In this document: positions 5,208 through 21,127 of the stretch, piece by piece
Layout of the letters: every line of letters begins with the position of its first letter
How positions within the stretch are numbered: the first letter of the stretch is position 1
From: a virus
IMG/VR virus record: IMGVR_UViG_3300022752_002920
Coordinates: 1 to 21,127 of that record
Length of the DNA: 21,127 bases
Strand: one strand, 5' to 3'
The notes under the pieces: model-generated
Database searches by the model: none
The model's input: the letters and a program-made list of their open reading frames with translations, nothing else
What the model was told of the DNA's origin: nothing
Program-made: the position numbers and the translations under genes

Positions 5208-6179
5208 ATGATGGAAACCAACTCCAAGATTTTTGTGGCTGGTCATCGTGGTTTAGCGGGATCTTCTATTGTTAGATGTTTGGAGAGCAAAGGATTCACG
5301 AATTTGATTGTTCGTTCTAGCAAGGAATTGGATCTTCGCAACCAACAGGCTGTCAGAGAGTTTTTTCTTCAGGAAAAACCCGAGTTCGTATTTGATGCTG
5401 CGGCAAAGGTCGGTGGTATACTTGCGAACAGCACATATCCCGCTGATTTCATATACGACAACATAATGATACAGAGCAATCTCATTCAGAGTTCCTACGA
5501 GACAGGTGTGAAGAAATTCCTGTTCTTGGGATCTGTTTGCATCTATCCAAAAGAATCACAGTTGCCAATCCGTGAAAACCATCTTATGACTGGTCCTTTG
5601 GAGACAACCAATGAAGCGTATGCCATAGCAAAAATCTGTGGTATAAAGATGTGTGAGTTCTATCGCAAACAGTACGGCTTCAATGCTGTATCGGTTATGC
5701 CGTCCAACCTGTACGGTCCTGGCGACAATTTCCATCCGCATAATAGTCATGTCATATCTGGACTAATACAGAAGTTCTACGCTGCCAAACTTGAAGATAA
5801 GCACAAGATTGAGTGTTGGGGTGATGGCAGTCCTGAGCGGGAGTTCTTGTACATTGATGACTTGTCTTCAGCCTGTTTTGATGTGATGCAGAAATACGAT
5901 CATCACGAGATCATCAATATCAGCAGTGGAGTTGAATACACCATCAAAGAGGTAGCGGAAATGGTGAAAGAAATAGTTGGATTTCAGGGAGAGATCATTT
6001 GGGATACAACAAAGCCAAACGGAACCATGAAGCGTCCACTCAATATCAACAAGATAAAGAAGATGGGATGGTTCCCAAAGGTTAATCTTTATGACGGTAT
6101 AAAGATCACTTTTGATTGGTATGTGAAAAACTATCAAGAATTACAACAAACACAAAGATCCATGAGAAGTGGAGCGTGA
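5208..6179 (+). CDS. fcl: GDP-L-fucose synthase (GDP-4-keto-6-deoxymannose epimerase/reductase)
   Basis: This is a 323-residue extended SDR enzyme that converts GDP-4-keto-6-deoxy-D-mannose to GDP-L-fucose with NADPH. GHRGLAG at 12-18 is the dinucleotide-binding loop. Catalytic residues appear at S109, C111, Y138, K142 and H181. This is exactly two beyond E. coli Fcl S107, C109, Y136, K140 and H179, so the active site looks complete. FLGSVCIYP, NEAYAIAK, NLYGPGDNF and EREFLYIDDL are family blocks. Length matches the family (about 320). No GDP-mannose 4,6-dehydratase (gmd) was recognised in the window, so the substrate must come from the host or from a gene elsewhere. It follows the 116-residue gene by two bases. 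Confidence 0.93.
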   Translation: MMETNSKIFVAGHRGLAGSSIVRCLESKGFTNLIVRSSKELDLRNQQAVREFFLQEKPEFVFDAAAKVGGILANSTYPADFIYDNIMIQSNLIQSSYETGVKKFLFLGSVCIYPKESQLPIRENHLMTGPLETTNEAYAIAKICGIKMCEFYRKQYGFNAVSVMPSNLYGPGDNFHPHNSHVISGLIQKFYAAKLEDKHKIECWGDGSPEREFLYIDDLSSACFDVMQKYDHHEIINISSGVEYTIKEVAEMVKEIVGFQGEIIWDTTKPNGTMKRPLNINKIKKMGWFPKVNLYDGIKITFDWYVKNYQELQQTQRSMRSGA

Positions 6180-6181
6180 CT

Positions 6182-6865
6182 ATGAAATTGATTACGGTGT
6201 GTTCGGATTCTCACAATGAGTTGCTAGAAAAGCATCTTCTTCCTTCATTGCCATCAACATTAACAGCAACAGTTGTGAAAACGACTCAACGCGGTAATGG
6301 AAATCATGGATGGAATTCAGAATTCATTGCAGCAATGAGGGAGAAACTAAGCGTTGTTCTTCATCATACAAAAACAGAAAACGCTCCTTTCATCTACTGC
6401 GATGCAGACATTAGATTTAATCCTCAAGTTGATCCAGTTCCGTTTTTACTAACAGTACTAGAGCAAAATAAATTTGACATAGTGTGTCAGCGAGATGGTG
6501 GAGACATATGTGCTGGTTTCATGTTGCTTGATCCATCCGAGAAGAACGCGAACTATTTGCAGGCTGTTCTGAACTATATGGATGCCAATCTATCAAAATG
6601 TGATCAACTTGCTTTCAAGGAGTTGTATCACTCAAACCTTTATCCCAATGATGCAAAACCTCGCATTGGTCTACTTGACGTAAATGTTGGGTTTGGAAAC
6701 ATGAACCACTTGCAACCAAATGTCTTATGGACTTCGGACAATGACATGATGGAAAGACACAGGGACATCGTTCGAAAGCAGTTCATGTGGCACGCCAATC
6801 ACACAATTGGAGTGCAAAACAAGATGGAGATGCTTGATAGGTTCAAGATTATTTGTGAAGGTTAA
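6182..6865 (+). CDS. Glycosyltransferase-like protein (DAD motif)
   Basis: This 227-residue protein is likely a GT-A nucleotide-diphospho-sugar transferase. FIYCDADIRFNPQ at 70-82 is a good DxD strand as in GT77-like and related enzymes. DIVCQRDGGDICAGFMLLDPS then gives the donor-pocket part, and a C-terminal FMWHANHTIG contains a His that could bind metal. ATG 6182 follows the fcl stop by two bases, with GGAG nearby; an upstream in-frame start at 6116 lies inside fcl and is rejected. AT-rich codons continue here. The acceptor is unknown. Confidence 0.7.
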   Translation: MKLITVCSDSHNELLEKHLLPSLPSTLTATVVKTTQRGNGNHGWNSEFIAAMREKLSVVLHHTKTENAPFIYCDADIRFNPQVDPVPFLLTVLEQNKFDIVCQRDGGDICAGFMLLDPSEKNANYLQAVLNYMDANLSKCDQLAFKELYHSNLYPNDAKPRIGLLDVNVGFGNMNHLQPNVLWTSDNDMMERHRDIVRKQFMWHANHTIGVQNKMEMLDRFKIICEG

Positions 6866-6882
6866 ACACAAGGAATATCAGC

Positions 6883-7677
6883 ATGAAAGTGCCTTCTTAC
6901 AGCATAACCATACAAACATATGTTTACAGATATGAATCCTACTTCAAATCATTGCTTGAAACCATACACAAGCAAAGACCCAATATTGAAAAAGTAGTAT
7001 TCGTCAACGGACAACACAAAGAACAATTTAGCGAGGACTACAGAAGGAACATCATGCAGTATGCATCGTGTTTCCCTAATACATTCTTGGTTATGTCTCC
7101 GTTCATGCGAGGCTGCTCGCATATGTGGAACACCTGCATAAATTACACAAGCAACGAATACATTCTGGTATTGAGTGATGACATCATAATTCTTGATGGA
7201 TTCTTTGACCACTTTGAGGAGATGCTTGCCCACAACCGCCAACTAGGAGATGAGTCGTTTAGGATTAATTGGCATTGGGGTCACTTCTGCATTTGGAGAA
7301 ATGATGTTCTAGATCCAAATAGAGTGGGGTATTTTGATGAGCGTTTGATTGCATTTGGTGATGAAGATGGAGATTGGATGTGGCGTTATCAAGACAAGTT
7401 CAATCGTCATATGAGAAACTACGGAACAGACAGGCTTCCGTTTAATTCCGACAGTGTTTTGATGCCCGGAAAGAATACCAAAACACACAGCGGAAGCAAA
7501 TACAGTGCTTTCAACCATGAATTTTGGCTTGAGCAAAAGATGGAACCCGATATTGGGGGAAGCAATGATGCTCATGGGTTGTATAGAAACAACCCACAAA
7601 AGGTAAGACCAGGAATGGAAACTCCTAACTTTTATCCTGGTGAGAAGTGGTATAGAGACAACATCCATCTAGTATGA
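6883..7677 (+). CDS. Family 2-like glycosyltransferase
   Basis: This is a 264-residue GT-A protein. SYSITIQTYVYRYESYFKSLL at the start, CSHMWNTCINYTSNEYILVLSDDIIIL at 78-104 with the SDD metal motif, and FDERLIAFGDEDGDWMWRYQ at 151-170 with the ED pair are the three family 2 landmarks in the right order. The region from about 190 on is rich in Asn, Gly and His and probably contacts the acceptor. It is cytoplasmic by sequence. The gene ends in ATGA shared with the next SDR gene. The RBS (AAGGAAT) is modest. Its place between fcl and three SDR genes suggests that it uses a deoxy-sugar made by them, which is an inference. Confidence 0.78.
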   Translation: MKVPSYSITIQTYVYRYESYFKSLLETIHKQRPNIEKVVFVNGQHKEQFSEDYRRNIMQYASCFPNTFLVMSPFMRGCSHMWNTCINYTSNEYILVLSDDIIILDGFFDHFEEMLAHNRQLGDESFRINWHWGHFCIWRNDVLDPNRVGYFDERLIAFGDEDGDWMWRYQDKFNRHMRNYGTDRLPFNSDSVLMPGKNTKTHSGSKYSAFNHEFWLEQKMEPDIGGSNDAHGLYRNNPQKVRPGMETPNFYPGEKWYRDNIHLV

Positions 7678-8498
7678 TATCTGTCTACGGATCAACTGGG
7701 TTCATAGGATCTCGTTTTTGTTCGATGTTTGGAGATACTACGGTATCAATACCAAGAGAACAAGACGATCCTGCTTCAAGTGAAGTGCTGTATTTCATAA
7801 GCACTACTCACAACTACAATATATTCACAGAACCACACAAAGACATAGACACGAACATGAGTAAGTTGATATCGGTTCTTGAGGAGTGTAGAAAACTCCA
7901 CGGGCAGAAAACAGTTTTCAATTTCGTGAGTTCGTGGTTCGTGTACGGCATGAATGCCACTCTCAACACAAAAGAAACGGATCATTGCGACCCGCGAGGG
8001 TTTTATTCCATAACTAAAAGAGCGGCAGAGCAGATGCTGATCTGCTACTGCGAAACATTCGGAATGAGTTATCGTATACTTCGGCTTACCAATATTGTGG
8101 GAGAAACCGATCCTAAAGTTTCTCATCAGCGAAACGCTGTGCAGCACATGATCGGATTGCTGAAGAAAAACGAACCAGTCAAGTTGTACGACAATGGTTC
8201 GAACATACGGGACTTCATGTATGTGGATGATGCTTGCAGGGGTATTGATGTGTGCGTCCGAACTGCCCCGATGAATGAAACCATAAACATCAGCAACACA
8301 CAGCCAATTGAAATTGGAAGCGTGATTCGTTATGCAAAGGAGAAATTGAATTCTTCCTCTCCTCTTGTTTCCATTGATCCTCCACACTTCCACAAAGTCG
8401 TACAGGTGAAAGATGTGTGTCTAAATACAGACAAACTTCGATCCTACGGATATCAACCCACCATAAATACTCTTGAAGCAATCGACAGATTGCTGTGA
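7674..8498 (+). CDS. Extended SDR NAD(P)-dependent sugar-nucleotide epimerase/reductase
   Basis: This 274-residue protein starts with MISVYGSTGFIGSRF, whose GSTGFIG (6-12) is the dinucleotide loop. FVSSWFVYG at 84-92 carries the catalytic Ser, and Y111/K115 in GFYSITKRAAEQ form the YxxxK pair. LRLTNIVGE and NIRDFMYVDDACRG are typical extended-SDR blocks that bind the sugar nucleotide. It is short for the class (usually 300-340). The segment after the first strand is reduced (residues 20-45), so cofactor preference cannot be judged. It could be the 4-keto reductase of a deoxy-sugar pathway. It overlaps the upstream gene by ATGA. Confidence 0.82.
   Translation: MISVYGSTGFIGSRFCSMFGDTTVSIPREQDDPASSEVLYFISTTHNYNIFTEPHKDIDTNMSKLISVLEECRKLHGQKTVFNFVSSWFVYGMNATLNTKETDHCDPRGFYSITKRAAEQMLICYCETFGMSYRILRLTNIVGETDPKVSHQRNAVQHMIGLLKKNEPVKLYDNGSNIRDFMYVDDACRGIDVCVRTAPMNETINISNTQPIEIGSVIRYAKEKLNSSSPLVSIDPPHFHKVVQVKDVCLNTDKLRSYGYQPTINTLEAIDRLL
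8462..8469 (+). promoter_or_regulatory. Weak candidate late promoter (CATAAATA)
   Basis: CATAAATA lies inside the end of the SDR gene, 48 bases before the DUF2061 ATG. It matches seven of eight bases of the T4 late -10 element. It is also a plain Thr-Ile-Asn-Thr coding stretch, so chance is a fair explanation. Confidence 0.2.
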
Positions 8499-8516: not shown

Positions 8517-8753
8517 ATGTATACAGAAACAAAAAAGAGAAGTTGGACAAAGACCGTTGTTTGGCGGCTTATAGCCACCGCAAACAGTTTTGCGATACTG
8601 GCAGCAGCCATTACAGGCAGTGCTTTATGGAATGCCGTCTGCATGAACATAACGGGACTTTTTGTGTACTATTTCTATGAACGAATATGGAATCGTATTT
8701 CTTGGGGAAAAGTTCTAGTGAAGGTTCAAAATAATGGAGGCGAGCATGAATAA
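8517..8753 (+). CDS. Small DUF2061-type membrane protein
   Basis: This is a 78-residue protein with two predicted membrane helices, about 17-36 and 37-54. The start KKRSWTKTVVWRLIATANSF and the block FYERIWNRISWG at 53-64 match the DUF2061 pattern, in which a basic Trp-Arg start precedes two helices and a HERIWN-like end. The family has no assigned reaction; members occur alone or fused to APS kinase. It would insert in the inner membrane with the basic N-terminus inside by the positive-inside rule. It overlaps the next SDR gene by 8 bases. A competing frame at 8495-8680 lacks any family signal. In this cluster it may help anchor or export a glycan, which is a guess. Confidence 0.75.
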   Translation: MYTETKKRSWTKTVVWRLIATANSFAILAAAITGSALWNAVCMNITGLFVYYFYERIWNRISWGKVLVKVQNNGGEHE

Positions 8754-9717
8754 AGTCATGGTTGTTGGTGGGGCTGGCTACATCGGAACTTTGATTTCAT
8801 CTGAACTGCATGATCGGGGATACGATGTTAGCATTGTGGATCTCTTGTGGTTTGGGAACCATCTTCCCGCCGAGTTAAAGAATCGGGTAAGGGTTTGTGA
8901 TGTATTTGATCTGAAGCAGTCCGATCTTGAGGGCTTTGATGCAGTGGTGTTTGTTGCTGGACTGTCAAACGACCCTATGGCAGACTATTCTCCTGGCAAA
9001 AACTTCATCTCCAATTCTGCAAGTCCAGCGTATCTGGCGTATATCGCAAAGAAGGCTGGTGTGAAGCGAATGGTTTACGCCAGTAGTTGCTCCGTGTACG
9101 GATACGCGGTGGATGAGTTTTATGATGAAAGCGGTCCCACCACCGCCGTTTATCCGTATGGAATATCCAAACTCCAAGGCGAAAGATCGGTCATGCAGTT
9201 GGCATCCGAAGATTTTTCGGTGATTGCGTTCCGTAAAGGAACCGTTTCGGGGGTCAGTCCTCGTATGAGATTTGATCTAGTCGTGAATGCGATGTTCAAG
9301 ACAGCGGTTTCCTCCAACACAATAACCATGAGCAATCCGTCCATATGGCGACCCGTGTTGTCAATAAAGGATTGTGTGTCTGCATATGTTCGCGCAATAG
9401 AAGCAGACAGTCACATATCTGGTGTGTTCAATGTTGCTTCCGAGAATTGTACCGTGGGAGCGATTGCCGATGTGGTTCGAACAACCGTTCAAGAAAAACT
9501 GTCCATCAAACCCATCATAATCAACAACAACATTCAAGATGTTCGAAACTACAAGGTTGACTGCACCAAGGCTACCACGGTTTTGGGATTCGTTCCCCAC
9601 AACAATGTGAGGAGTATTGTGGAAGATTTGATTGCAAACAGGGATAGTTTCGGTAACATGGAAGATCCTAGGTACTACAACATCAAGACTTTTGTGGACA
9701 TGGAGAAAACCAAGTGA
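8746..9717 (+). CDS. Extended SDR sugar-nucleotide epimerase/dehydratase
   Basis: This is a 323-residue extended SDR protein. VVGGAGYIGTLISSEL gives the GxxGxxG loop at 8-14. VYASSCSVYG at 110-119 supplies the catalytic Ser. Y138-GIS-K142 is the YxxxK pair. FRKGTVSGVSPRMRFDLVVNAM and RPVLSIKDCVSAYVRAI are typical substrate-domain blocks. The ATG at 8746 is chosen over 8734 because GGAGG at 8736-8740 sits 5 bases before it. The stop overlaps the next GTG start (GTGA), which ties it to the 3-dehydrase gene. It may be a 4-keto reductase or epimerase acting on the product of that enzyme. The exact reaction is not readable. Confidence 0.85.
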   Translation: MNKVMVVGGAGYIGTLISSELHDRGYDVSIVDLLWFGNHLPAELKNRVRVCDVFDLKQSDLEGFDAVVFVAGLSNDPMADYSPGKNFISNSASPAYLAYIAKKAGVKRMVYASSCSVYGYAVDEFYDESGPTTAVYPYGISKLQGERSVMQLASEDFSVIAFRKGTVSGVSPRMRFDLVVNAMFKTAVSSNTITMSNPSIWRPVLSIKDCVSAYVRAIEADSHISGVFNVASENCTVGAIADVVRTTVQEKLSIKPIIINNNIQDVRNYKVDCTKATTVLGFVPHNNVRSIVEDLIANRDSFGNMEDPRYYNIKTFVDMEKTK

Positions 9718-11048
9718 CTGAATTGACCATATCAAAAATCACGGAAACGCTTCACGAAGCGATTAGAAATCGCCTTGCAGAAAACAAGAAGCAGTGGATC
9801 GCTGGACAGAGTTGGGTACAGTATGCAGGAAACTATTTTACGGACGAAGAATACATCGCCGCAATAGATTGCTTGCTGAATGGCTGGCTTGCACTGGGAG
9901 AAAACGGAATTCGTTTTGAAAACAAGTTTTGCTCTCGTCTTGGAAAGGATCACGGCTGTCTTTCGAACAGCGGATCTAGCGCAAACCTGTTGATGGTGAC
10001 GGCATTGAGTTCCAAGAAACTGTGGAATATGCCGAAGGGAACCAAGATCATCACCCCCGTTGCGGGCTTCCCGACAACTATCAATCCAATAGTCCAAAAC
10101 GGGTACGAGCCAGTGTTCATCGACATTGAGTTGGACACGCTCAACCTGAATATTGAACAGTTGGAGTCTGCTGCAAAGGCTGGTGCAAGTGCATTGGTGT
10201 TTGCTCATGTTCTCGGAAATCCGCCAAACATGGATGCCGTGATGGATATTGTCAAGCGGTACAACTTGGTTCTTCTTGAGGACTGCTGCGATGCTCTTGG
10301 AAGCACATATAAAGGTCAGCCGCTTGGATCTTTTGGAGAACTTGCAACCTGTTCTTTCTATCCTGCCCACCACATAAGCATGGGAGAAGGAGGATTTGTT
10401 GCCACAAGAACAAAAGAACAGGAAATGGTTGTCAAGAGTCTCCGAGAATGGGGCAGAGGTTGTTACTGTTCTGGTAAAGCGGCTTCATGCCTCAAGAACG
10501 GGATGTGCAAGAAGCGATTCAGCAACTGGTTGCCCTCTCTGCCAGATGAGATTTTCGACCATAAGTTCGTGTACGAAGAGATAGGATACAATCTGAAGCC
10601 ACTTGATCTACAGGCTGCTATGGGAATAGTTCAGTTGGACAAACTTCAGTGGATCATTGACCGAAGAAAGCACAACTATCAGAGACTAATGAGCATCTTT
10701 TCGAAATACGAAGACAGGTTCATTTTGCCGAAGGCTACCGATGGATCTGATCCAGCGTGGTTTGCCTTCCCGATGACGGTCAGAGAAAATTCTGGTTTCA
10801 AGAGGAGCGATATCACTGGCTACTTTGAAGACAACAAGATACAGACCCGCAACTACTTTGCTGGAAACATTCTGTTGCAGCCTGCGTACAGCGGATTCGT
10901 GAACTTTGACCCAGTGAAAGCATTTCCTATGGCTACCACAGCAACAACGAACACATTCTTTCTTGGAACAAGCCCCGTTATTACTGATGAACATATTGAC
11001 TATATTGAACAAACCTTGAATGCATTTTTTGAAAGCAAAATCAAATGA
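9714..11048 (+). CDS. E1-type iron-sulfur PMP-dependent sugar-nucleotide 3-dehydrase (RfbH/DdhC-like)
   Basis: This 444-residue DegT/DnrJ/EryC1-fold protein is likely to remove the 3-hydroxyl from a 4-keto-6-deoxy sugar nucleotide on the way to 3,6-dideoxy sugars. CSFYPAHHISMGEGG at 213-227 has His219 where aminotransferases have the PLP-binding Lys; this is the hallmark of 3-dehydrases (His220 in Yersinia E1). Cysteines C192, C250, C252 and C259 fit the E1 [2Fe-2S] pattern C-x57-C-x1-C-x7-C except that the last gap is 6; C265 just before KKRF is an alternative ligand. REWGRGCYC and IGYNLKPLDLQAAMG are RfbH-like blocks. Length matches RfbH (about 437). The start is GTG 9714, overlapping the upstream stop. 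No CDP-glucose 4,6-dehydratase or E3-type reductase was recognised here. Confidence 0.87.
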   Translation: MTELTISKITETLHEAIRNRLAENKKQWIAGQSWVQYAGNYFTDEEYIAAIDCLLNGWLALGENGIRFENKFCSRLGKDHGCLSNSGSSANLLMVTALSSKKLWNMPKGTKIITPVAGFPTTINPIVQNGYEPVFIDIELDTLNLNIEQLESAAKAGASALVFAHVLGNPPNMDAVMDIVKRYNLVLLEDCCDALGSTYKGQPLGSFGELATCSFYPAHHISMGEGGFVATRTKEQEMVVKSLREWGRGCYCSGKAASCLKNGMCKKRFSNWLPSLPDEIFDHKFVYEEIGYNLKPLDLQAAMGIVQLDKLQWIIDRRKHNYQRLMSIFSKYEDRFILPKATDGSDPAWFAFPMTVRENSGFKRSDITGYFEDNKIQTRNYFAGNILLQPAYSGFVNFDPVKAFPMATTATTNTFFLGTSPVITDEHIDYIEQTLNAFFESKIK

Positions 11049-11950
11049 AAGCATTAGTAACTGGTGGAGCAGGTTTCATTGGATCTACTCTGGTAGATCG
11101 TCTGATTGCAGACGGACATGATGTCACGGTGATCGACAACGAATCATCGGATGCACACGATCAGTTCTATTGGAATCCTGCTGCTAAAAACTACAAGTAC
11201 GATATCAATGATTGTGTCATGGTTCGTAGATTGTATGAAGGTGTGGATACTGTTTTCCATTTTTCAGCAGAAGCACGAATTCAGCCGTGCATGGAAGATC
11301 CGCTGAAGGCGGTGGAAGCAAATATGCTTGGCACAGCAAGCGTATTGCAGTGCGCCCGTGTGTGTGGTGTAAAGCGGGTAGTGTATTCTTCAACATCTGC
11401 TGCCTATGGATTGAACAATACTCCTCCACTGATAGAAACCATGCCCAATGATTGTCTCAATCCATATTCGTTAACTAAGGTTGGTGGAGAAGAATTGTGC
11501 AAGATGTATTCCAAACTATACGGATTGGAAACCATCATCTTCCGTTATTTCAATGTCTACGGAGAGAGACAGCCTTTGCGTGGACAATATGCTCCTGTGA
11601 TCGGGATCTTTCTGCGTCAACGAGCAGCAGGGGAGTCCATGACCGTTGTTGGCGATGGAGAGCAGCGGAGAGATTTCATTCATGTGGGAGATGTAGTCGA
11701 AGCCAACATCAAGGCATCAGAATTTGTTGCTCCACACAATCACTGGGAATGGGGTCAGGTCTACAATATTGGAACTGGCAAAAATCATTCCATTAATCAG
11801 ATTGCTGCTCTTGTAGGTGGAGATAAGATACATATTAGTCCTCGTCAGGGTGAGTCTCGAATTACTCTAGCAAACACAACCAAAGCAAAAGAACACCTTG
11901 GATGGACACCGAAAGTTCGTCTTGAAGACTGGATTGCCGAGCATAAATAA
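11045..11950 (+). CDS. UDP-glucose 4-epimerase-like SDR
   Basis: This 301-residue extended SDR begins MKALVTGGAGFIGSTLVDRL with GGAGFIG at 7-13 and an Asp at the end of the second strand (VIDNESS), which favours NAD. VFHFSAEARIQ at 70-80, VVYSSTSAAYG at 112-122 with the catalytic Ser/Thr, and Y141-SLT-K145 complete the active site. FRYFNVYGERQ and RRDFIHVGDVVEANI are blocks of the GalE/WbpP-type epimerase group. It probably interconverts a gluco- and galacto-configured UDP-sugar, but a 4,6-dehydratase or other epimerase role is possible. It overlaps the 3-dehydrase gene by ATGA. Its stop lies inside a late-promoter-like CATAAATA. Confidence 0.87.
   Translation: MKALVTGGAGFIGSTLVDRLIADGHDVTVIDNESSDAHDQFYWNPAAKNYKYDINDCVMVRRLYEGVDTVFHFSAEARIQPCMEDPLKAVEANMLGTASVLQCARVCGVKRVVYSSTSAAYGLNNTPPLIETMPNDCLNPYSLTKVGGEELCKMYSKLYGLETIIFRYFNVYGERQPLRGQYAPVIGIFLRQRAAGESMTVVGDGEQRRDFIHVGDVVEANIKASEFVAPHNHWEWGQVYNIGTGKNHSINQIAALVGGDKIHISPRQGESRITLANTTKAKEHLGWTPKVRLEDWIAEHK
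11942..11949 (+). promoter_or_regulatory. Candidate T4-type late promoter (CATAAATA)
   Basis: CATAAATA sits at the very end of the epimerase gene, 23 bases before the next ATG, and matches the NATAAATA form of the T4-like late promoter. Together with the same octamer at 13133 it marks gene starts where the DNA becomes GC-rich. The site partly encodes the last codons, so chance is not excluded. Confidence 0.4.
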
Positions 11951-14556: not shown

Positions 14557-14928
14557 ATGACACGCGATGAACTACTGGCATTTCATGCCGAACTGTGCGG
14601 CGCAGCCCGCGATCTGATGAGCAAGAAGAACCGCGACTACGCTGGCAAGGAAGGCACGGAGCCGTTTGCGAACTTTACCCGCGTGGAGTCTATGGGCATC
14701 TGCAAGACCGAGCAGGGCTTCATGGTGCGCCTCACGGACAAGATGAGCCGCCTGTCCTCCTTCATCCATGCTGGCAAGATGAATGTTCAGGACGAGTCCT
14801 TCATGGACACCTGTGTGGATGTGATTAATTACATGGTGCTGCTTGCTGCATATTTGAAAGAAAAGGAGTCTTCAAATATGCAGAAGGGTATTGATTCAAA
14901 TAATAGAGGCGGTAAGATTGGGGCATGA
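14557..14928 (+). CDS. Nucleotide modification-associated domain 1 (DUF1599) protein
   Basis: This is a 123-residue protein. KKNRDYAGKEGTEPFANFTRVE at 23-44, QGFMVRLTDKMSRLSSFI at 53-70 and VQDESFMDTCVDVINYMVLLAAYL at 77-100 match the phage DUF1599/Nmad1 pattern (DYxG, NF, RLSDKxxRL, DES-D---D--NY). The helical fold with an acidic C-terminal motif resembles MazG-type NTP pyrophosphohydrolases. The family is linked by context to phage nucleotide handling or modification; its reaction is not settled. GGGAG lies upstream of ATG 14557; an upstream reading at 14497 is inside dut and rejected. It lies between dut and uvsE, consistent with a DNA-precursor role. It overlaps uvsE by ATGA. Confidence 0.8.
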   Translation: MTRDELLAFHAELCGAARDLMSKKNRDYAGKEGTEPFANFTRVESMGICKTEQGFMVRLTDKMSRLSSFIHAGKMNVQDESFMDTCVDVINYMVLLAAYLKEKESSNMQKGIDSNNRGGKIGA

Positions 14929-15854
14929 TTCGTCACCTTGGCTACGCCTGTCAGAACCTGTCGCTTGCCGAAGGGCGGCGACCAAAGGATAGGTTCTTTA
15001 CCGACCGTACCCTGCGGATGGACGGCTTTTCGTTGGAGCGTGTGGGAGAACTCGGTGCGCGGAACGCCGCCGATCTGCTCCCCATCCTCCAGTGGAATGT
15101 GGCGAACGGCATCCGCTTTTTCCGTATCGGCAGCGGGATGTTTCCGTTCATGGATCACCCCACGCTTGGCTACGGGATTGGGCAGTTGCTCCCGCAGCAC
15201 GAAACCGCCATCCGCGAATCGCTCAAGAGCGCGGGGGAATACGCAAAGGAAAACGGAATGCGCCTGTCGTGCCATCCTGGTCCGTACACTTGCATTGCGT
15301 CCCCTGATCCCGACACCGTGGGGAAAAGCGTACAGTGCCTAGCCATGCACTCACTCATTGCCGACCTGTTGGGTTACGGTGACGAGTTTGCCATTAACAT
15401 CCACATGGGCGGCGTGTACGGCGACAAGCACAAGACGGCTGATCGCTTCCTGCGGGAGTTTTCCCGACTGCCCGACAGCATCAAGCGGCGGCTCACCCTT
15501 GAGAACGATGACAAGCCCACGATGTGGAGCATGACTGAACTGTACACCCAAGTGGCAAAGCACTGCCCCGTAAAGTTGGTGTTGGATGTTCACCACCACC
15601 GCTTCTGCCATCGGGAGTCGCTGCGCGAAGCCGCTGACATGGCGTTCCGCACATGGCAGGGGTTCTGTGAAGTTCCGAAGGTTCACTACTCGGAGTCCAA
15701 GGCGGGGGCGCGACCACAAGCCCACTCGGACTACATTCGTGAAGAGATTCCTCTGCTGTCGGATACAGTAGAGTACGATGTGATGATTGAAGCCAAGGCA
15801 AAGGACTTGGCACTGCTTGAATACAGAAAGGTTCACGCACCGTGTTTGGTTTGA
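14925..15854 (+). CDS. uvsE: UV damage endonuclease UvsE (UVDE family)
   Basis: This 309-residue TIM-barrel enzyme nicks DNA 5' to UV photoproducts and some other lesions and starts excision repair without glycosylase. The start HLGYACQN and the metal ligands expected from the Thermus enzyme are all present: H78, H117 (SCHPGPY), H160 (INIHMGG), E193 (LTLENDD), D221 and H224 (LVLDVHHHRF), H254 with the modified-lysine position K252 (PKVHYS), and E289 (MIEAKAKD). Length matches bacterial UvsE (about 300). T4 itself uses the unrelated DenV glycosylase, so this is a different solution to UV damage. Overlaps are ATGA at the 5' end and 13 bases at the 3' end. Confidence 0.94.
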   Translation: MIRHLGYACQNLSLAEGRRPKDRFFTDRTLRMDGFSLERVGELGARNAADLLPILQWNVANGIRFFRIGSGMFPFMDHPTLGYGIGQLLPQHETAIRESLKSAGEYAKENGMRLSCHPGPYTCIASPDPDTVGKSVQCLAMHSLIADLLGYGDEFAINIHMGGVYGDKHKTADRFLREFSRLPDSIKRRLTLENDDKPTMWSMTELYTQVAKHCPVKLVLDVHHHRFCHRESLREAADMAFRTWQGFCEVPKVHYSESKAGARPQAHSDYIREEIPLLSDTVEYDVMIEAKAKDLALLEYRKVHAPCLV

Positions 15855-16273: not shown

Positions 16274-16293
16274 GGTGTGCCGTACAAAGACCC
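16261..16293 (+). repeat. Direct repeat copy 1 at the 5' end of the first HNH gene
   Basis: These 33 bases start in the last codons of the lysozyme gene and run through the first codons of the HNH gene (start GATGCGGGGGTGAGGTGTGC). They match 17234-17266 at 31 of 33 positions by hand alignment. The repeat spans a gene boundary, so protein similarity alone does not explain it. Confidence 0.85.
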
Positions 16294-16843
16294 AAAAAAT
16301 GCCAAGCGTGATGCCTATTTTAGAGAGTACCGCAGGACTCATAAGAAAGAGATTGCGGAAAAGAATAAGAAGCGGTATCTGAAAAATCGTGAAGCCTTCT
16401 GCGAAAAACAAAAACCTGCTCTATCTGAATACAGAAGAATCATCAGAGCAAAAGACAGAGGGTGTTATGTTCCGTTGACGGAAGATGAGAAACAGTCTTT
16501 GCTGCTGATTGAAAAAACTCGCAGGACTTTGGTTAAAGAAACGGGAAAGGCGTATGAGATAGATCATATCATTCCGATTTCTTATGGTGGACTTCATCAT
16601 CCGATCAATGTGCGAATAGTTGAAGCCGAACACAACAAATCAAAAAGCAATGATGTGACACCCGAGGCTGTTTCTCTTGCATACCAACACTATAGACTGT
16701 ACTATGATCGTGTTGGTTCCGAAAGAGCGATAGAGTTTGTAAAACAGTTGTCTGCGGGACTTGGTATTGAAGATTTACAGTTTAATGAAACAACCACACC
16801 GATCATCATAACAAAGCCAACACTAGAGGATTTTTTCACATGA
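16277..16843 (+). CDS. HNH endonuclease (speD-flanking, copy 1)
   Basis: This 188-residue protein from GTG 16277 begins PYKDPKNAKRDAYFREYRR, a basic helical region (to about residue 46) like the arginine-rich N-termini of many HNH homing enzymes. The HNH core is YEIDHIIPISYGGLHHPINVRIVEAEHNKSKS at 93-124, with D96-H97, N111 and H119/N120 as likely metal and catalytic residues. The end KPTLEDFFT overlaps speD by ATGA. It is a full-length paralogue of the protein at 17250, without the tandem expansion. DNA is AT-rich (about 37% GC in a sample at 16381) compared with its neighbours, consistent with an acquired free-standing homing gene. Confidence 0.85.
   Translation: MPYKDPKNAKRDAYFREYRRTHKKEIAEKNKKRYLKNREAFCEKQKPALSEYRRIIRAKDRGCYVPLTEDEKQSLLLIEKTRRTLVKETGKAYEIDHIIPISYGGLHHPINVRIVEAEHNKSKSNDVTPEAVSLAYQHYRLYYDRVGSERAIEFVKQLSAGLGIEDLQFNETTTPIIITKPTLEDFFT
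16815..16843 (+). repeat. 3' end repeat copy 1 (HNH cassette)
   Basis: The last 29 bases of the first HNH gene align with 17953-17981 with five mismatches by hand; both encode KPTLEDF and end in CATGA, where the next gene starts. With the 33-base 5' repeat it marks the two HNH genes as copies of one cassette. Confidence 0.7.
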
Positions 16844-17235
16844 GCAACCCATTCGGATATTCGTATTACCTTGATATGTACCGTTGCCGCGCAGGAGCAG
16901 CGGATGACTTGGAGTTGCACTACCGCTTTCTTGAGCGCGTGGTGGACAAGATCGGCATGACCCGCATGAGTCAGCCCATCGTAATTCACGGTCCAACTGC
17001 TTTTGGTGTGGAACTCTATCCCAACAAGACAGGGGTGAGCGGTTGGGTTCCGCTTATTGAGAGCGGCATTCAGATTCACTCCATTGAACCCACCCACTTC
17101 ATCACGCTTGATGTGTACTCATGCAACAAGTTTGACAAGCAGATCATTCTTGACTACGCACGGGAGTGCTTTGGATTTGTGGGGCACGAAGAGCGGTACT
17201 TTGAGCGTGGCAGGTTATACGGCGACATTGCCTGA
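16840..17235 (+). CDS. speD: S-adenosylmethionine decarboxylase proenzyme
   Basis: This 131-residue protein is a small bacterial/archaeal-type (class 1b) AdoMet decarboxylase, which makes the aminopropyl donor for spermidine. The segment PLIESGIQIHSIEPTHFITLDVYSC at 71-95 contains E74-S75, the self-cleavage site that yields the pyruvoyl group, plus H80 and C95. The spacing S+5=H and H+15=C equals that of S63, H68 and C83 in the Thermotoga enzyme. Length agrees with the class. No spermidine synthase is visible, so product use depends on the host. Cyanophages also carry speD. Polyamine could assist DNA condensation. It starts by ATGA overlap with one HNH gene and is followed by a second. Confidence 0.88.
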   Translation: MSNPFGYSYYLDMYRCRAGAADDLELHYRFLERVVDKIGMTRMSQPIVIHGPTAFGVELYPNKTGVSGWVPLIESGIQIHSIEPTHFITLDVYSCNKFDKQIILDYARECFGFVGHEERYFERGRLYGDIA

Positions 17236-17266
17236 TGCGGGGGTAAGGTATGCCGTACAAAGACCC
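17234..17266 (+). repeat. Direct repeat copy 2 at the 5' end of the second HNH gene
   Basis: This is the second copy of the 33-base repeat, starting at the end of the speD stop and running into the second HNH gene. The first dozen bases (GATGCGGGGGTAA) are a near copy of the lysozyme 3' end, which has no coding role here. This suggests that the HNH gene moved or was duplicated together with a scrap of lysozyme sequence. Confidence 0.85.
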
Positions 17267-17981
17267 CGAAAAACAGAAGGCAGCAGACAAGGCTTGGCGT
17301 GAACGCTATCGTGAACGGAAAGCGGCGACAGACAAGGCTTGGCGTGAACGCAATCGTGAACGCTATCGTGAACGGAAAGCGGCGACAAACAAGGCTTGGT
17401 ATGAACGCAATCCCGAACGGAAAGCGGCGACAAACAAGGCTTGGCGTGAACGCAATCGTGAACGGAAAGCGGCAGTACGCAAGGCTTGGCATGAACGCAA
17501 TCGTGAACGAGCAGCGGCGACAAACAAGGCTTGGCGTGAACGCAATCCCGAACGAGTAGCGGAAAAACGTAGAAGACGAAGATGCAGAAAGAGAAATGCT
17601 TCAATTCACTTGACCGCAAATGAAACCCAACAACTTCTCATTTTAGAACGCACTCGCCAAGAACTCCAAAGGGAGACAGGACGAGAGTATCACATTGACC
17701 ATGTTCTTCCTATTGTTCACGGTGGCATCCATCACCCTGTCAACTTGAGAATACTTGAAGGTGAAGAAAACCTTTCAAAAAATGCAAAACTCCTTCCCGA
17801 AGCGATTGCTCTTGCCCCCGAACACTTCCGCCTGTATAGTGAGAGGATCAGCACTGAACGCGCATGGGAGTTTGTGCGCCAACTTGCGGAAAGATTGGGA
17901 TTGGATGAAGACGATTTGGACGCATTGGTCACCGGCAAGCCACTAAAGAGCAAGCCCACACTAGAGGATTTCATGGCATGA
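17250..17981 (+). CDS. HNH endonuclease with expanded arginine-rich repeats (copy 2)
   Basis: This is a 243-residue protein from ATG 17250. Residues 10-102 are six tandem units of KAATNKAWRERNRER type, five of about 15 residues and one of 19 with an added YRER, giving a long basic alpha-helical arm. RRRRRCRKR follows at 107-115. The HNH core is YHIDHVLPIVHGGIHHPVNLRILEGEENLSKN at 147-178 with D150-H151, N165 and N174 in the roles seen in copy 1. The C-terminal domain (LLPEAIALAPEHFRLY... KPTLEDFMA) is paralogous to copy 1. ATGA overlaps the DNA methyltransferase. It is best read as a homing-type endonuclease; a role as partner of the methyltransferase is possible but not supported by family. 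Confidence 0.85.
   Translation: MPYKDPEKQKAADKAWRERYRERKAATDKAWRERNRERYRERKAATNKAWYERNPERKAATNKAWRERNRERKAAVRKAWHERNRERAAATNKAWRERNPERVAEKRRRRRCRKRNASIHLTANETQQLLILERTRQELQRETGREYHIDHVLPIVHGGIHHPVNLRILEGEENLSKNAKLLPEAIALAPEHFRLYSERISTERAWEFVRQLAERLGLDEDDLDALVTGKPLKSKPTLEDFMA
17277..17555 (+). repeat. In-frame tandem repeat of about 45 bp, six units
   Basis: Units start at codons 10, 24, 43, 58, 73 and 88 of the HNH gene, each with the core ACAAGGCTTGGCGTGAACGC. The nucleotide copies are nearly identical in places, which points to recent slippage or unequal recombination. Lengths are 42, 57, 45, 45, 45 and 45 bases, so the frame is kept. The matching minus-strand open frames are shadows of this repeat. 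Confidence 0.9.
17953..17981 (+). repeat. 3' end repeat copy 2 (HNH cassette)
   Basis: This is the partner of 16815-16843; it ends in GCATGA, where the methyltransferase start codon overlaps the HNH stop in the same way that speD overlaps copy 1. Confidence 0.7.
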
Positions 17982-18982
17982 ACACACACCGCATCATTCT
18001 TGGCGACTGCATTACGGGCATGAAGACGCTGCCAGACGGCTGCGTTCAGACTTGCATCACATCACCCCCCTACTTCGGGCTTCGTGATTATCAAGGAGGA
18101 GAAGCCGAGATTGGTCAGGAGGACACCGTTGACGGCTATGTGCAGAAGATGGTGGAGGTGTTCCGCGAGGTACGCCGCATTCTGCGTGATGACGGCACGG
18201 TATGGCTGAATCTTGGCGACTCGTACATGGCTGCAAAGAATGTGGCACCTCCCCCACAGACCATCGGAGGTCAGCGTGGAATGCCATCAGATTTTGTACC
18301 AGGTAATCGCAGGGAACAGAAAGGACTAAAGCAAAAGGACTTGATCGGTATTCCTTGGAGAGTCGCACTTGCTCTACAGGCTGACGGGTGGTATCTGCGA
18401 CAGGACATCATTTGGAGCAAGCCCAATCCCATGCCCGAGAGCGTGGAAGACCGCTGCACGAAGTCGCATGAGTACATCTTCCTGTTGTCCAAGAAGCCCA
18501 AGTACTACTACGACCACGAGGCTATCAAGGAACCGCTTGCAGAAGCATCAATCGGACGAGCACAAAGAAAGCAAAAACTGATTGATCGTGAAGGCGTTGG
18601 AACTCTTGGAAAGCAGATTCAAAATGGGGTTGATGCCACACACGGTTACGCTGGTCTTGCTATGGGTAGAAACGGAAAAACAGGATATTCAGAAGACGGC
18701 AAGCGGAACAAGCGTTCGGTGTGGACGGTGACTACCAAGGCGTACAAGGGTGCACACTTTGCCACTTACCCAAAGGACTTGATCCTGCCGTGTGTGTTGG
18801 CAGGATGCCCTGTTGGTGGCACGGTGTTTGATCCGTTCACAGGCAGCGGCACGACTGCCGTGGTAGCACTGAAGAACGGACGAAACTATATCGGAACCGA
18901 ACTGAATCCCGAGTATGTACAGATCGCGGAAGCGCGAATCAAAGAATCAGTTCCACAAACCCTTGAGGAGATTTTTGAATGA
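17978..18982 (+). CDS. Site-specific DNA methyltransferase (beta class, N4-cytosine or N6-adenine)
   Basis: This 334-residue enzyme has motif IV CITSPPYFGLRDY at 26-38 near the N-terminus and motif I FDPFTGSGTT at 284-293 near the C-terminus, the order of the beta class of amino-methyltransferases. VFREVRRILRDDGTVWLNLGDSY at 61-83, GWYLRQDIIWSKPNPMPESV at 137-156 and SHEYIFLLSKKPKYYYD at 163-179 are typical of the N4mC/N6mA family. The variable middle (about 185-255) would be the target recognition part. No restriction enzyme of a known family is adjacent, so it is probably an orphan that protects phage DNA from host restriction or marks it. It overlaps upstream and downstream genes by ATGA. 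Confidence 0.92.
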   Translation: MNTHRIILGDCITGMKTLPDGCVQTCITSPPYFGLRDYQGGEAEIGQEDTVDGYVQKMVEVFREVRRILRDDGTVWLNLGDSYMAAKNVAPPPQTIGGQRGMPSDFVPGNRREQKGLKQKDLIGIPWRVALALQADGWYLRQDIIWSKPNPMPESVEDRCTKSHEYIFLLSKKPKYYYDHEAIKEPLAEASIGRAQRKQKLIDREGVGTLGKQIQNGVDATHGYAGLAMGRNGKTGYSEDGKRNKRSVWTVTTKAYKGAHFATYPKDLILPCVLAGCPVGGTVFDPFTGSGTTAVVALKNGRNYIGTELNPEYVQIAEARIKESVPQTLEEIFE

Positions 18983-19242
18983 GTAATTTCAAGCCTATTG
19001 GAAAATGGATTTGGGTACAGTCGCACCTTGGTGGTCAGAAGGAAACCGAAGCAGGCATCATCTACAATGAAGTAGTCAAAACCCAGTACATTTGGGCTAC
19101 GGTTACCGCAATCGGTGATAAGATAACGGAAGACATCAAGGTTGGAGACAAGATTCTATGGGATCGCACCAAGAACCAAGGTCAGGGACATGATGGCGGT
19201 GACATGGTTCATCAGGACTGGATCGCACTCGTTGAGCGTTAA
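18979..19242 (+). CDS. GroES-like co-chaperonin
   Basis: This 87-residue protein resembles GroES/Cpn10. FKPIGKWIWVQ at 4-14 is the first strand. KETEAGIIYNE at 21-31 sits where GroES has its mobile loop, the part that contacts GroEL. IWATVTAIGDKITEDIKVGDKILWDR at 38-63 matches the GroES block (GEVLAVG...VKVGDIVIF), and HQDWIALVE at 78-86 the C-terminal ESDILAIVE. T4 encodes an analogous co-chaperonin, gp31, of 111 residues, needed to fold the major capsid protein with host GroEL. This one is nearer in size to bacterial GroES (97). It lies between the methyltransferase (ATGA overlap) and gene 43. Confidence 0.8.
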   Translation: MSNFKPIGKWIWVQSHLGGQKETEAGIIYNEVVKTQYIWATVTAIGDKITEDIKVGDKILWDRTKNQGQGHDGGDMVHQDWIALVER

Positions 19243-19250
19243 GGAGCATC

Positions 19251-20528
19251 GTGGACTTCTACACTTCCGTTGACATTCGTGGCAAGAACATCCTGTATCG
19301 GGGATGGAAGAACGGGCAGCGTCAGCACCTCCGTGTGCCGTTCTGCCCTACCCTCTACATCCCGTCCAAGGACGCAGGAGAGTTCACCACCATCAACGGC
19401 AAGCCCGTGCAGCCCATTCAGTTTGACGGCATCGGAGAAGCCCGCGAGTTCATTGACCGTTTCAAGGATGTCTCCAACTACGACATCTACGGAAACACCA
19501 ACTTTGTGTACCAGTACCTTTACAAGGAGTTTCCCAATGAAGTTGATTACGACTTCAGCAGCCTCCGCATAGCCAACTTGGACATTGAGACATCGTGTGA
19601 CGGCGGTTTTCCCACGCCATCCGCTCCCACCGAGCGGGTCATTGCAATCACGATCTCAATGGGTGACAAGACCTATGTGCTAGGCTTGGGAGACTTTCAT
19701 ATTGACGGCGAGGGAGTTTCCTGCATTCCTTATGATGACGAGCAAGAACTGCTTGCAGGGTTCATTGAACTGTGGCGGTTCCTTGATCCCGACATCGTGA
19801 CAGGGTGGAACATCCGCTTCTTTGATATTCCGTACCTTGTGGCGCGGATGAACTACCTTGAAGAAGGATGGGGAAACTCCCTCTCGCCGTGGGGCAAACT
19901 CCGCGAGACTGTGGTGAATCGCATGGGACGCGACCAGACCGCGTATGTGATCAGCGGCGTGGCTACCCTTGACTACTTTGAACTGTATCAGACTTTCACC
20001 TATGTGAAGCAGGAGTCATACTCCCTCAATCACATTTCCAAGGTGGAGTTGGGCGAAGAGAAACTGTCGTATGCGGAATACGAAACCATTCAGGAGTTCT
20101 ACACACAGAACTTTCAGCGGTTCATGGAGTATAACTTCCAAGATGTGCGGCTCGTTGATCGCCTTGAATCCAAACTGAAACTGCTGGAACTGGCGGTGGC
20201 GTTGGCGTATTCGGCGCGGGTGAACTTTGAGGATGTGTTCTCTCAAGTCCGCACATGGGATGCCATCATCCACCACCACCTGATGAGCAAGGGCATGGTG
20301 ATTCCGCAGAAGACCGATCAGAAGAAGGATGATCAGTACGCGGGTGCGTATGTGATGAATCCCATCGTGGGCAAGCACGATTGGGTGGTGAGTTTCGACT
20401 TGAATTCTCTCTACCCACATTTGATAATGCAGTATGGAATCAGTCCTGAATGTGTTGTGAAGCAGCGAGATTTAGAAAATCGTATTGACGAAATTAGAAG
20501 GGAATTAGAGGGTCGGGGTGTGCATTAG
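19251..20528 (+). CDS. 43: Family B DNA polymerase gp43, N-terminal part (exonuclease and start of polymerase domain)
   Basis: This is a 425-residue product with the T4-like arrangement: N-terminal domain, then the 3'-5' exonuclease with Exo I LDIET (D111, E113; T4 D112/E114), Exo II TGWNIRFFDIPYL (D192), Exo III YNFQDVRLVD (D298), and polymerase motif A FDLNSLYPHLIMQYGISPE with D383 (T4 D408). It stops 25 residues after ISPE at TAG 20526-20528. Motifs B and C (the second catalytic Asp pair), palm remainder and thumb are missing, so this polypeptide alone cannot polymerise. An HNH gene starts 38 bases later. Full T4-like polymerases are about 830-900 residues. The start is GTG 19251 with AAGGAG upstream. 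The tail QRDLENRIDEIRRELEGRG has AT-rich codons unlike the rest, so it may belong to the insert. Confidence 0.93.
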   Translation: MDFYTSVDIRGKNILYRGWKNGQRQHLRVPFCPTLYIPSKDAGEFTTINGKPVQPIQFDGIGEAREFIDRFKDVSNYDIYGNTNFVYQYLYKEFPNEVDYDFSSLRIANLDIETSCDGGFPTPSAPTERVIAITISMGDKTYVLGLGDFHIDGEGVSCIPYDDEQELLAGFIELWRFLDPDIVTGWNIRFFDIPYLVARMNYLEEGWGNSLSPWGKLRETVVNRMGRDQTAYVISGVATLDYFELYQTFTYVKQESYSLNHISKVELGEEKLSYAEYETIQEFYTQNFQRFMEYNFQDVRLVDRLESKLKLLELAVALAYSARVNFEDVFSQVRTWDAIIHHHLMSKGMVIPQKTDQKKDDQYAGAYVMNPIVGKHDWVVSFDLNSLYPHLIMQYGISPECVVKQRDLENRIDEIRRELEGRGVH

Positions 20529-20565
20529 CGAATGGGGATATACATACAAGTGAGGAGATTACTGT

Positions 20566-21127
20566 ATGCCCATCAAAACTTTCAACATTACACACAACGA
20601 ACTTCGCAAACTTTTTATAGAGCAGAATCTTTCACGGAAACAAGTAGCCAAGTATTACGGATGCTCGGAAGTGCTTGTAAAAAAGAAGTGTCAGCAATAC
20701 GGTATAAAGAAACCGAAGCACCTTGAGAGTGCAAACAAAGAAAGAAAGGCAATCTGTAGGTGCTTATGGTGTGATAGAGAGTTCATAGTTCCTAGATTCA
20801 GAGTGAAAAATAAAAAGTGGCTTTCGAAATACTGCTCACTCAAATGCTCTTCTGATATTAGATATTTGGGAGAAGAACATAAACGGGCTATGTTGAACTC
20901 TGTATCTGCAACACGAAGATCAAATGTCAAGAATGCTTTTGACCAAACAGCAGACATCGACAAGATAAATCAGTTCTATATTAAGGCAAAACTTCTATCG
21001 AAGCAAACAGGAATACAGCACGAGGTTGATCACATAGTACCCATCTCTAAAGGTGGTAAGCACAATGAGAACAATCTTCAGATACTGACAATGTCGGAAA
21101 ACAGAAGAAAAGGATCAAAGTATGTTT
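20566..21127 (+). CDS. HNH homing endonuclease following the truncated gene 43 (runs off the window)
   Basis: This is an open frame of at least 187 residues from ATG 20566, preceded by TGAGGAGA. Residues 8-48 look like a helix-turn-helix DNA-binding segment (LSRKQVAKYYGCSEVLVKKKCQQYG). Residues about 64-95 hold a zinc-ribbon-like CRCLWC and YCSLKC set. HEVDHIVPISKGGKHNENNLQIL near 151-173 is the HNH core, with DH, H and N residues in place. No stop occurs before the window end. Codons are AT-rich. It is either the endonuclease of a group I intron in gene 43 or a free-standing homing gene that splits it. It belongs to a different subfamily from the other HNH genes here. Confidence 0.88.
   Translation, partial: MPIKTFNITHNELRKLFIEQNLSRKQVAKYYGCSEVLVKKKCQQYGIKKPKHLESANKERKAICRCLWCDREFIVPRFRVKNKKWLSKYCSLKCSSDIRYLGEEHKRAMLNSVSATRRSNVKNAFDQTADIDKINQFYIKAKLLSKQTGIQHEVDHIVPISKGGKHNENNLQILTMSENRRKGSKYV

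Follow-up and report, generated by a model that had tools for sequence, protein, structure and literature searches.

The window analysed here, a viral record taken at its whole length of 21,127 bases, carries in a glycan cassette a gene (9714-11048, plus strand) for a protein of the E1 type, and raises the question of what an iron-sulfur sugar 3-dehydrase would do in a phage, on which nucleotide sugar it would act and from where it would receive its electrons. A preliminary description had read the product as an E1-type enzyme with its catalytic histidine in place and a shifted set of cluster cysteines, serving 3,6-dideoxyhexose synthesis with no partner reductase visible. Our analysis makes it probable that the protein is a working PMP/[2Fe-2S] NDP-4-keto-hexose 3-dehydrase that uses a dTDP- or GDP-linked substrate and host ferredoxin or flavodoxin as electron donors.

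The window is T4-like as judged by clamp loader A (gp62, 555-947), RegA (993-1430) and a family-B DNA polymerase (gp43, from 19251), and the glycan cassette is bracketed by regA and the polymerase gene. Among the sugar genes examined, which run from Fcl to the SDR gene at 11045, most have a third-codon GC of 0.38-0.51, against 0.67-0.69 in gp62, regA and gp43. The lower values of the sugar genes fit a later acquisition, and a horizontally acquired glycan cassette is the best reading of the setting in which the enzyme sits. Beside the cassette lie genes for a UvdE-type endonuclease (14925-15854), a SAM decarboxylase-like protein (16840-17235) and a GroES-like protein (Cpn10, 18979-19242). An HNH-type endonuclease is encoded at 16277-16843, and the protein encoded at 17250-17981 resembles this neighbor and has an N-terminal repeat (AW.ERN.ER). 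Scanning the window for Rfam families and tRNAs gave no matches. Within 19251-21127, similarity of the polymerase to the intact relative in record L010 ends at L010 residue 404 (window 20453), the frame closes at 20528 and the bases beyond show neither a polymerase match nor an Rfam intron, so that the gene is interrupted or split.

The E1 gene itself is a single open reading frame for 444 amino acids with no internal stops, whose GTG start shares the four bases GTGA with the stop of the preceding gene. Among phage copies, synonymous sites are saturated (pS 0.76-0.85) while dN is only 0.11-0.25. The frame is therefore real, intact and under purifying selection, and a chance or decayed frame is ruled out. 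The product matches the NCBIfam equivalog model for RfbH (NF011936) with 470.9 bits, above the cut-off of 423, and its best match among PDB sequences is Yersinia E1 (3bcx, E=4.7e-108). Two E1 dehydrase entries score 365 and 361 bits, followed by ColD with 177 and the next entry with 152. An AlphaFold (AF2) model (pLDDT 90, pTM 0.89) is nearest to the E1 structures 3bb8/3bcx (Z 52, 39% identity, 1.9 A over 411 residues), with ColD next (Z 47). Judged by sequence, the phage protein is a bona fide E1/RfbH-type 3-dehydrase, in keeping with the preliminary assignment, which curated model, PDB sequence and fold matches, invariant ligands and tree all bear out. Identity as ColD was ruled out by four invariant ligand cysteines and by the score of 177 bits for ColD against 365 for E1.

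Cysteines occur at positions 53, 73, 82, 191, 192, 213, 250, 252, 259 and 265 of the protein. Cys192 (codon 10287-10289), Cys250-Tyr-Cys252 (10461-10469) and His219 at the position of the PLP lysine (10368-10370) align with Yersinia E1 in the spacing C192-x57-C250-x1-C252, just as first described. The fourth ligand had been placed at Cys259, and here the alignment leads to a different residue: the fourth cysteine of E1 (NTCKKRF) pairs with Cys265 of the phage protein (GMCKKRF; codon 10506-10508). Cys192, His219, Cys250, Cys252 and Cys265 are unchanged in all 167 aligned homologues, which come from phages, cyanophages, bacteria and archaea and include some near-duplicates. Position 259 is a lysine in records L019/L020 and an asparagine in L198/L199 (CYCCGPKQNALPCGMC), and Cys259 was rejected as the fourth ligand. 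Since Cys265 aligns with the E1 cysteine and is invariant whereas Cys259 varies, the ligand is not shifted. Instead, the loop between ligands 3 and 4 (10470-10505) is longer, with 12 residues rather than the canonical 7. At the level of the alignment, the motif is C-x57-C-x1-C-x12-C, with the ordinary four ligands and five extra loop residues. In the AF2 model, residues 253-264 have a pLDDT below 50 and the cluster loop is undefined.

Across the 167 rows, this spacing is x7 in 138, x11 in 7 and x12 in 22, and every one of the x12 rows is viral. The x11 rows come from cyanophages, a 642-kb phage, a Nitrospirales genome and a Rhizobacter genome, and x11 is also found in a second Nitrospirota genome. 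In a tree of 60 rows, calculated with the loop removed from the alignment, the long-loop (x11/x12) and x7 sets are divided by one change across a branch with support 95/99; the outgroup branch is very long and the split carries no direction of change. The x12 set forms one group (68/87), the window enzyme and that of L010 are sisters (100/100), and the x11 row from Rhizobacter is basal to the x7 set. The phage enzyme does not group with lysine-containing aminotransferases. Few of the sampled bacteria have a long-loop enzyme (1 of 398 genomes of one phylum, 2 of 295 of another), and the loci taken from 386 cyanobacterial genomes included none. A match in Salmonella phage S.Kent (H7, L024) was rejected as a phage gene, as it groups with bacterial enzymes and has its own partial RfbG upstream; this canonical RfbH directly behind a partial RfbG is probably host rfb contamination.

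What the enzyme would act on is suggested by its neighbors, all on the plus strand. Directly upstream, and sharing the GTGA overlap, lies an SDR gene (c16, 8734-9717; SSCSVYG...YGISK), whose product is probably a 4-keto reductase/epimerase or a 4-dehydrogenase and has 6vo6 as its best PDB match (80 bits). The window shares this arrangement, with c16 immediately before E1, with 9 of 10 viral relatives of c16. The record L200 had to be dropped as a case of c16 without E1, as it also contains E1, about 4.6 kb upstream. Further upstream, a small DUF2061 membrane protein (8517-8753; PF09834, 28.5 bits) is kept between c16 and a second SDR, c1, in L191-L197. The c1 gene (7674-8498; SSWFVYG...YSITK), possibly encoding a C4 reductase, is a recurrent partner of long-loop E1: most phage loci of the window type have it close to E1, it occurs in cyanophage cassettes (43% identity), and it adjoins E1 in two Nitrospirota genomes. 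A GalE-like SDR gene (11045-11950; SSTSAAYG, no 4,6-dehydratase motif) overlaps the E1 stop and scores 165 bits on galE, where the cut-off is 262. The cassette further encodes a GDP-L-fucose synthase-like SDR (5208-6179; NF047922, 437.5 bits, below the cut-off of 500), two family-2 glycosyltransferases (PF00535; 2752-3402, and 11973-13169 with a TPR-like tail), a nucleotide-diphospho-sugar transferase (6116-6865; PF03407) and a methyltransferase (2078-2755; PF13578).

No 4,6-dehydratase gene was seen in the window itself, which is a fragment; most relatives have one next to E1 or close by. In 14 viral records, an RmlB-type gene (STDEVYG), of the dTDP-glucose 4,6-dehydratase kind, adjoins E1, directly upstream in 12 and directly downstream in 2; on TIGR01181, examples reach 309-382 bits, and a copy from a cyanophage exceeds the cut-off of 365. 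The same slot is filled by c16 in the window and in L002, L010, L021 and L194-L199, and by a c16-like SDR in L019/L020. GDP-mannose 4,6-dehydratase (GMD) is present in three c16-type records (413-451 bits, cut-off 415) and in a record of the other type that is 168 kb long. In G1109, genes for a TPP-dependent acetolactate-synthase-like protein, c16, GMD and a ColD-type protein are found close to an E1 (58% identical), and L207 (4581-14015) combines E1 and c16 with GMD, a ColD-type 3-dehydratase and a TPP-dependent enzyme like acetolactate synthase in a single phage cassette. Two split transketolase-like pairs lie downstream of E1 in L020 (11338-15864). The acetolactate-synthase-like gene of G1109 and the transketolases of L020 suggest branched 3-deoxy sugars in some relatives; neither gene type was seen in the window. 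In Synechococcus phage S-CAM7, a gene annotated as CDP-4-keto-6-deoxy-D-glucose-3-dehydrase (L168, 2950-4083) reads as ColD-type (FGHH), lacks the cluster cysteines and has GMD and GDP-fucose synthetase as neighbors.

The proposed synthesis of a 3,6-dideoxyhexose is thus plausible as far as the 4,6-dehydratases beside E1 in most relatives are concerned, whereas the enzymes that would tie it to the textbook route (RfbF, RfbG and E3) stayed below cut-offs in the phage records searched. By that classical route, RfbF and RfbG of the host would provide CDP-4-keto-6-deoxyglucose and a host E3 the electrons, leading to O-antigen sugars of the abequose, paratose or tyvelose type. The match to the RfbH equivalog model would suit it, as would the presence of an RfbG homologue close to E1 in roughly half of the canonical loci of bacteria. 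We nevertheless regard the CDP route as unlikely: the phage records searched contain no RfbF or RfbG over cut-off (a weak kind of absence, as both the window and the majority of relatives are fragmentary), RmlB-type or GMD dehydratases appear instead, and the phage clade stands apart from the canonical clade in the tree.

A comparably low probability attaches to a scheme in which the SDR at 8734-9717 is a C4-dehydrogenase like Cj1427 of Campylobacter and E1 acts on a 4-keto sugar that is not 6-deoxy, giving a 3-deoxy rather than a 3,6-dideoxy product. The SDR occupies the slot held by a 4,6-dehydratase in other phages, and its best PDB match, 6vo6, is a structure which we take to be Cj1427. 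This match amounts to only 80 bits, however, and the GMD of three c16-type records already makes a 4-keto-6-deoxy sugar. The chemistry is feasible, as a C4-dehydrogenase combined with a C3-dehydratase works in vitro (PMC10680097).

A further point is the source of electrons. The preliminary description had seen no E3 and had pointed to a CDP-glucose 4,6-dehydratase (RfbG) and an E3-like reductase as partners to look for; neither came up over cut-off in the phage records searched. No match to an E3-type reductase (PF00175, FNR-type NAD-binding) was found in two sets of 26 and 8 phage records, mostly fragments, several of them above 150 kb and the longest 642 kb. A ferredoxin gene was seen in only two cyanophages among the phage records. 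By itself, the missing E3 is weak evidence, because only 2 of 80 bacterial E1 loci have a full E3 nearby (searched by sequence pattern and similarity to two full E3s); a reductase-like gene of about 230 amino acids often stands behind E1 there. E1 is reduced by E3 through its [2Fe-2S] cluster and SpnQ by ferredoxin or flavodoxin systems, and E1, ColD and SpnQ alike form a Schiff base with PMP, employ a catalytic histidine and release the C3 hydroxyl (PMC8987622). Since the phage sequence has every hallmark of E1 and no E3 was seen, an SpnQ-like electron supply is the most economical reading, and host ferredoxin or flavodoxin are likely donors because no E3 is encoded nearby.

Lacking a reductase, the enzyme might instead leave its iron-sulfur route idle and transaminate C4. 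This would agree with the failure to find a reductase gene in the phage records searched and with the side activity of SpnQ in vitro (PMC8987622). Wild-type E1 shows no transamination under such conditions (PMC8987622), and the invariance of the four cysteines and His219 under purifying selection makes an idle cluster very improbable. An ordinary lysine-type sugar aminotransferase with cysteines unrelated to a cluster, to which membership in the Pfam DegT/DnrJ/EryC1 superfamily might point, can be dismissed on the histidine at the lysine position, the cysteines and the scores (E1 model over its cut-off; PseC, the second-best model, 156 bits against 423).

For the 3-dehydrase reading, the course of the reaction can be outlined by analogy with E1 and SpnQ. 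The C4 ketone of the sugar would form a Schiff base with PMP, His219 would take the C4' proton of PMP and the C3 hydroxyl would be lost. The resulting 3,4-glucoseen intermediate would then receive two single electrons via a cluster on Cys192, Cys250, Cys252 and Cys265, supplied by host ferredoxin or flavodoxin systems as with SpnQ. The substrate is likely a dTDP- or GDP-linked, not a CDP-linked, 4-keto-6-deoxy sugar. In the lineage of the window, GDP-4-keto-6-deoxymannose appears most likely; the GMD producing it would be encoded by the host or by the part of the phage genome outside the window. Donor and nucleotide are both likely assignments, drawn from gene context. After the E1 step, the SDRs encoded at 7674-8498 and 8734-9717 would reduce or epimerise C4, and glycosyltransferases of the cassette may place the 3-deoxy sugar on a cell-surface or virion glycan.

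If this is right, phages themselves supply a redox step of sugar deoxygenation and couple it to electron carriers of the host, in a nucleotide setting other than that of the textbook CDP pathway, and their cassettes exchange the dehydratase around a constant 3-dehydrase. The family would also be a testable one for co-variation of the E1 cluster loop and the electron donor. More tentatively, the long-loop enzymes as a whole may be a mainly viral clade of iron-sulfur 3-deoxygenases for dTDP or GDP sugars that draw electrons from ferredoxin or flavodoxin of the host. They would then be equivalents of ColD equipped with an iron-sulfur cluster, their loop being adapted to a general donor rather than to E3.

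Enzymes of this kind are familiar from bacterial pathways for surface sugars. Surface-glycan gene clusters are established in cyanophages and jumbo phages (PMC9602691, PMC7824862), viral rfbH is listed in Sargassum viromes (PMC11295528) and the copy in cyanophage S-H68 is annotated as rfbH. Viral rfbH genes were thus known before, and the enzyme described here is a variant. In the part of the literature covered, what is new as far as we have seen is the clade with the long loop, the revised assignment of the cluster ligands and a setting that points to dTDP or GDP in place of CDP; prior notice is possible. With E1/AscC/DdhC/RfbH (CDP-4-keto-6-deoxyglucose 3-dehydrase, 3bcx), the phage enzyme shares homology over the whole length (39% identity, Z 52), histidine for lysine and the four cysteine ligand positions, but it differs in a spacing of 12 rather than 7 between ligands 3 and 4 and in its setting, as no RfbF, RfbG or E3 was found in the phage records and related cassettes hold dehydratases of the dTDP or GDP type. 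SpnQ (dTDP-4-keto-2,6-dideoxyglucose 3-dehydrase), compared here by description, would resemble it in using an iron-sulfur cluster without a dedicated reductase and in the dTDP context of many relatives, whereas its substrate is another one and its pathway leads to an antibiotic. ColD (GDP-4-keto-6-deoxymannose 3-dehydratase) has the same fold and histidine, and likely the same GDP setting in the lineage of the window, but no iron-sulfur cluster (PMC8987622), while the phage enzyme has all four cysteines. The cyanophage homologues (S-H68, RN05-S) are 43% identical, have a long loop (x11) and lie in a glycan cassette with an RmlB-type dehydratase and a c1 homologue, and they differ from the enzyme of the window in a ferredoxin gene nearby, the lack of c16 and other glycosyltransferases.
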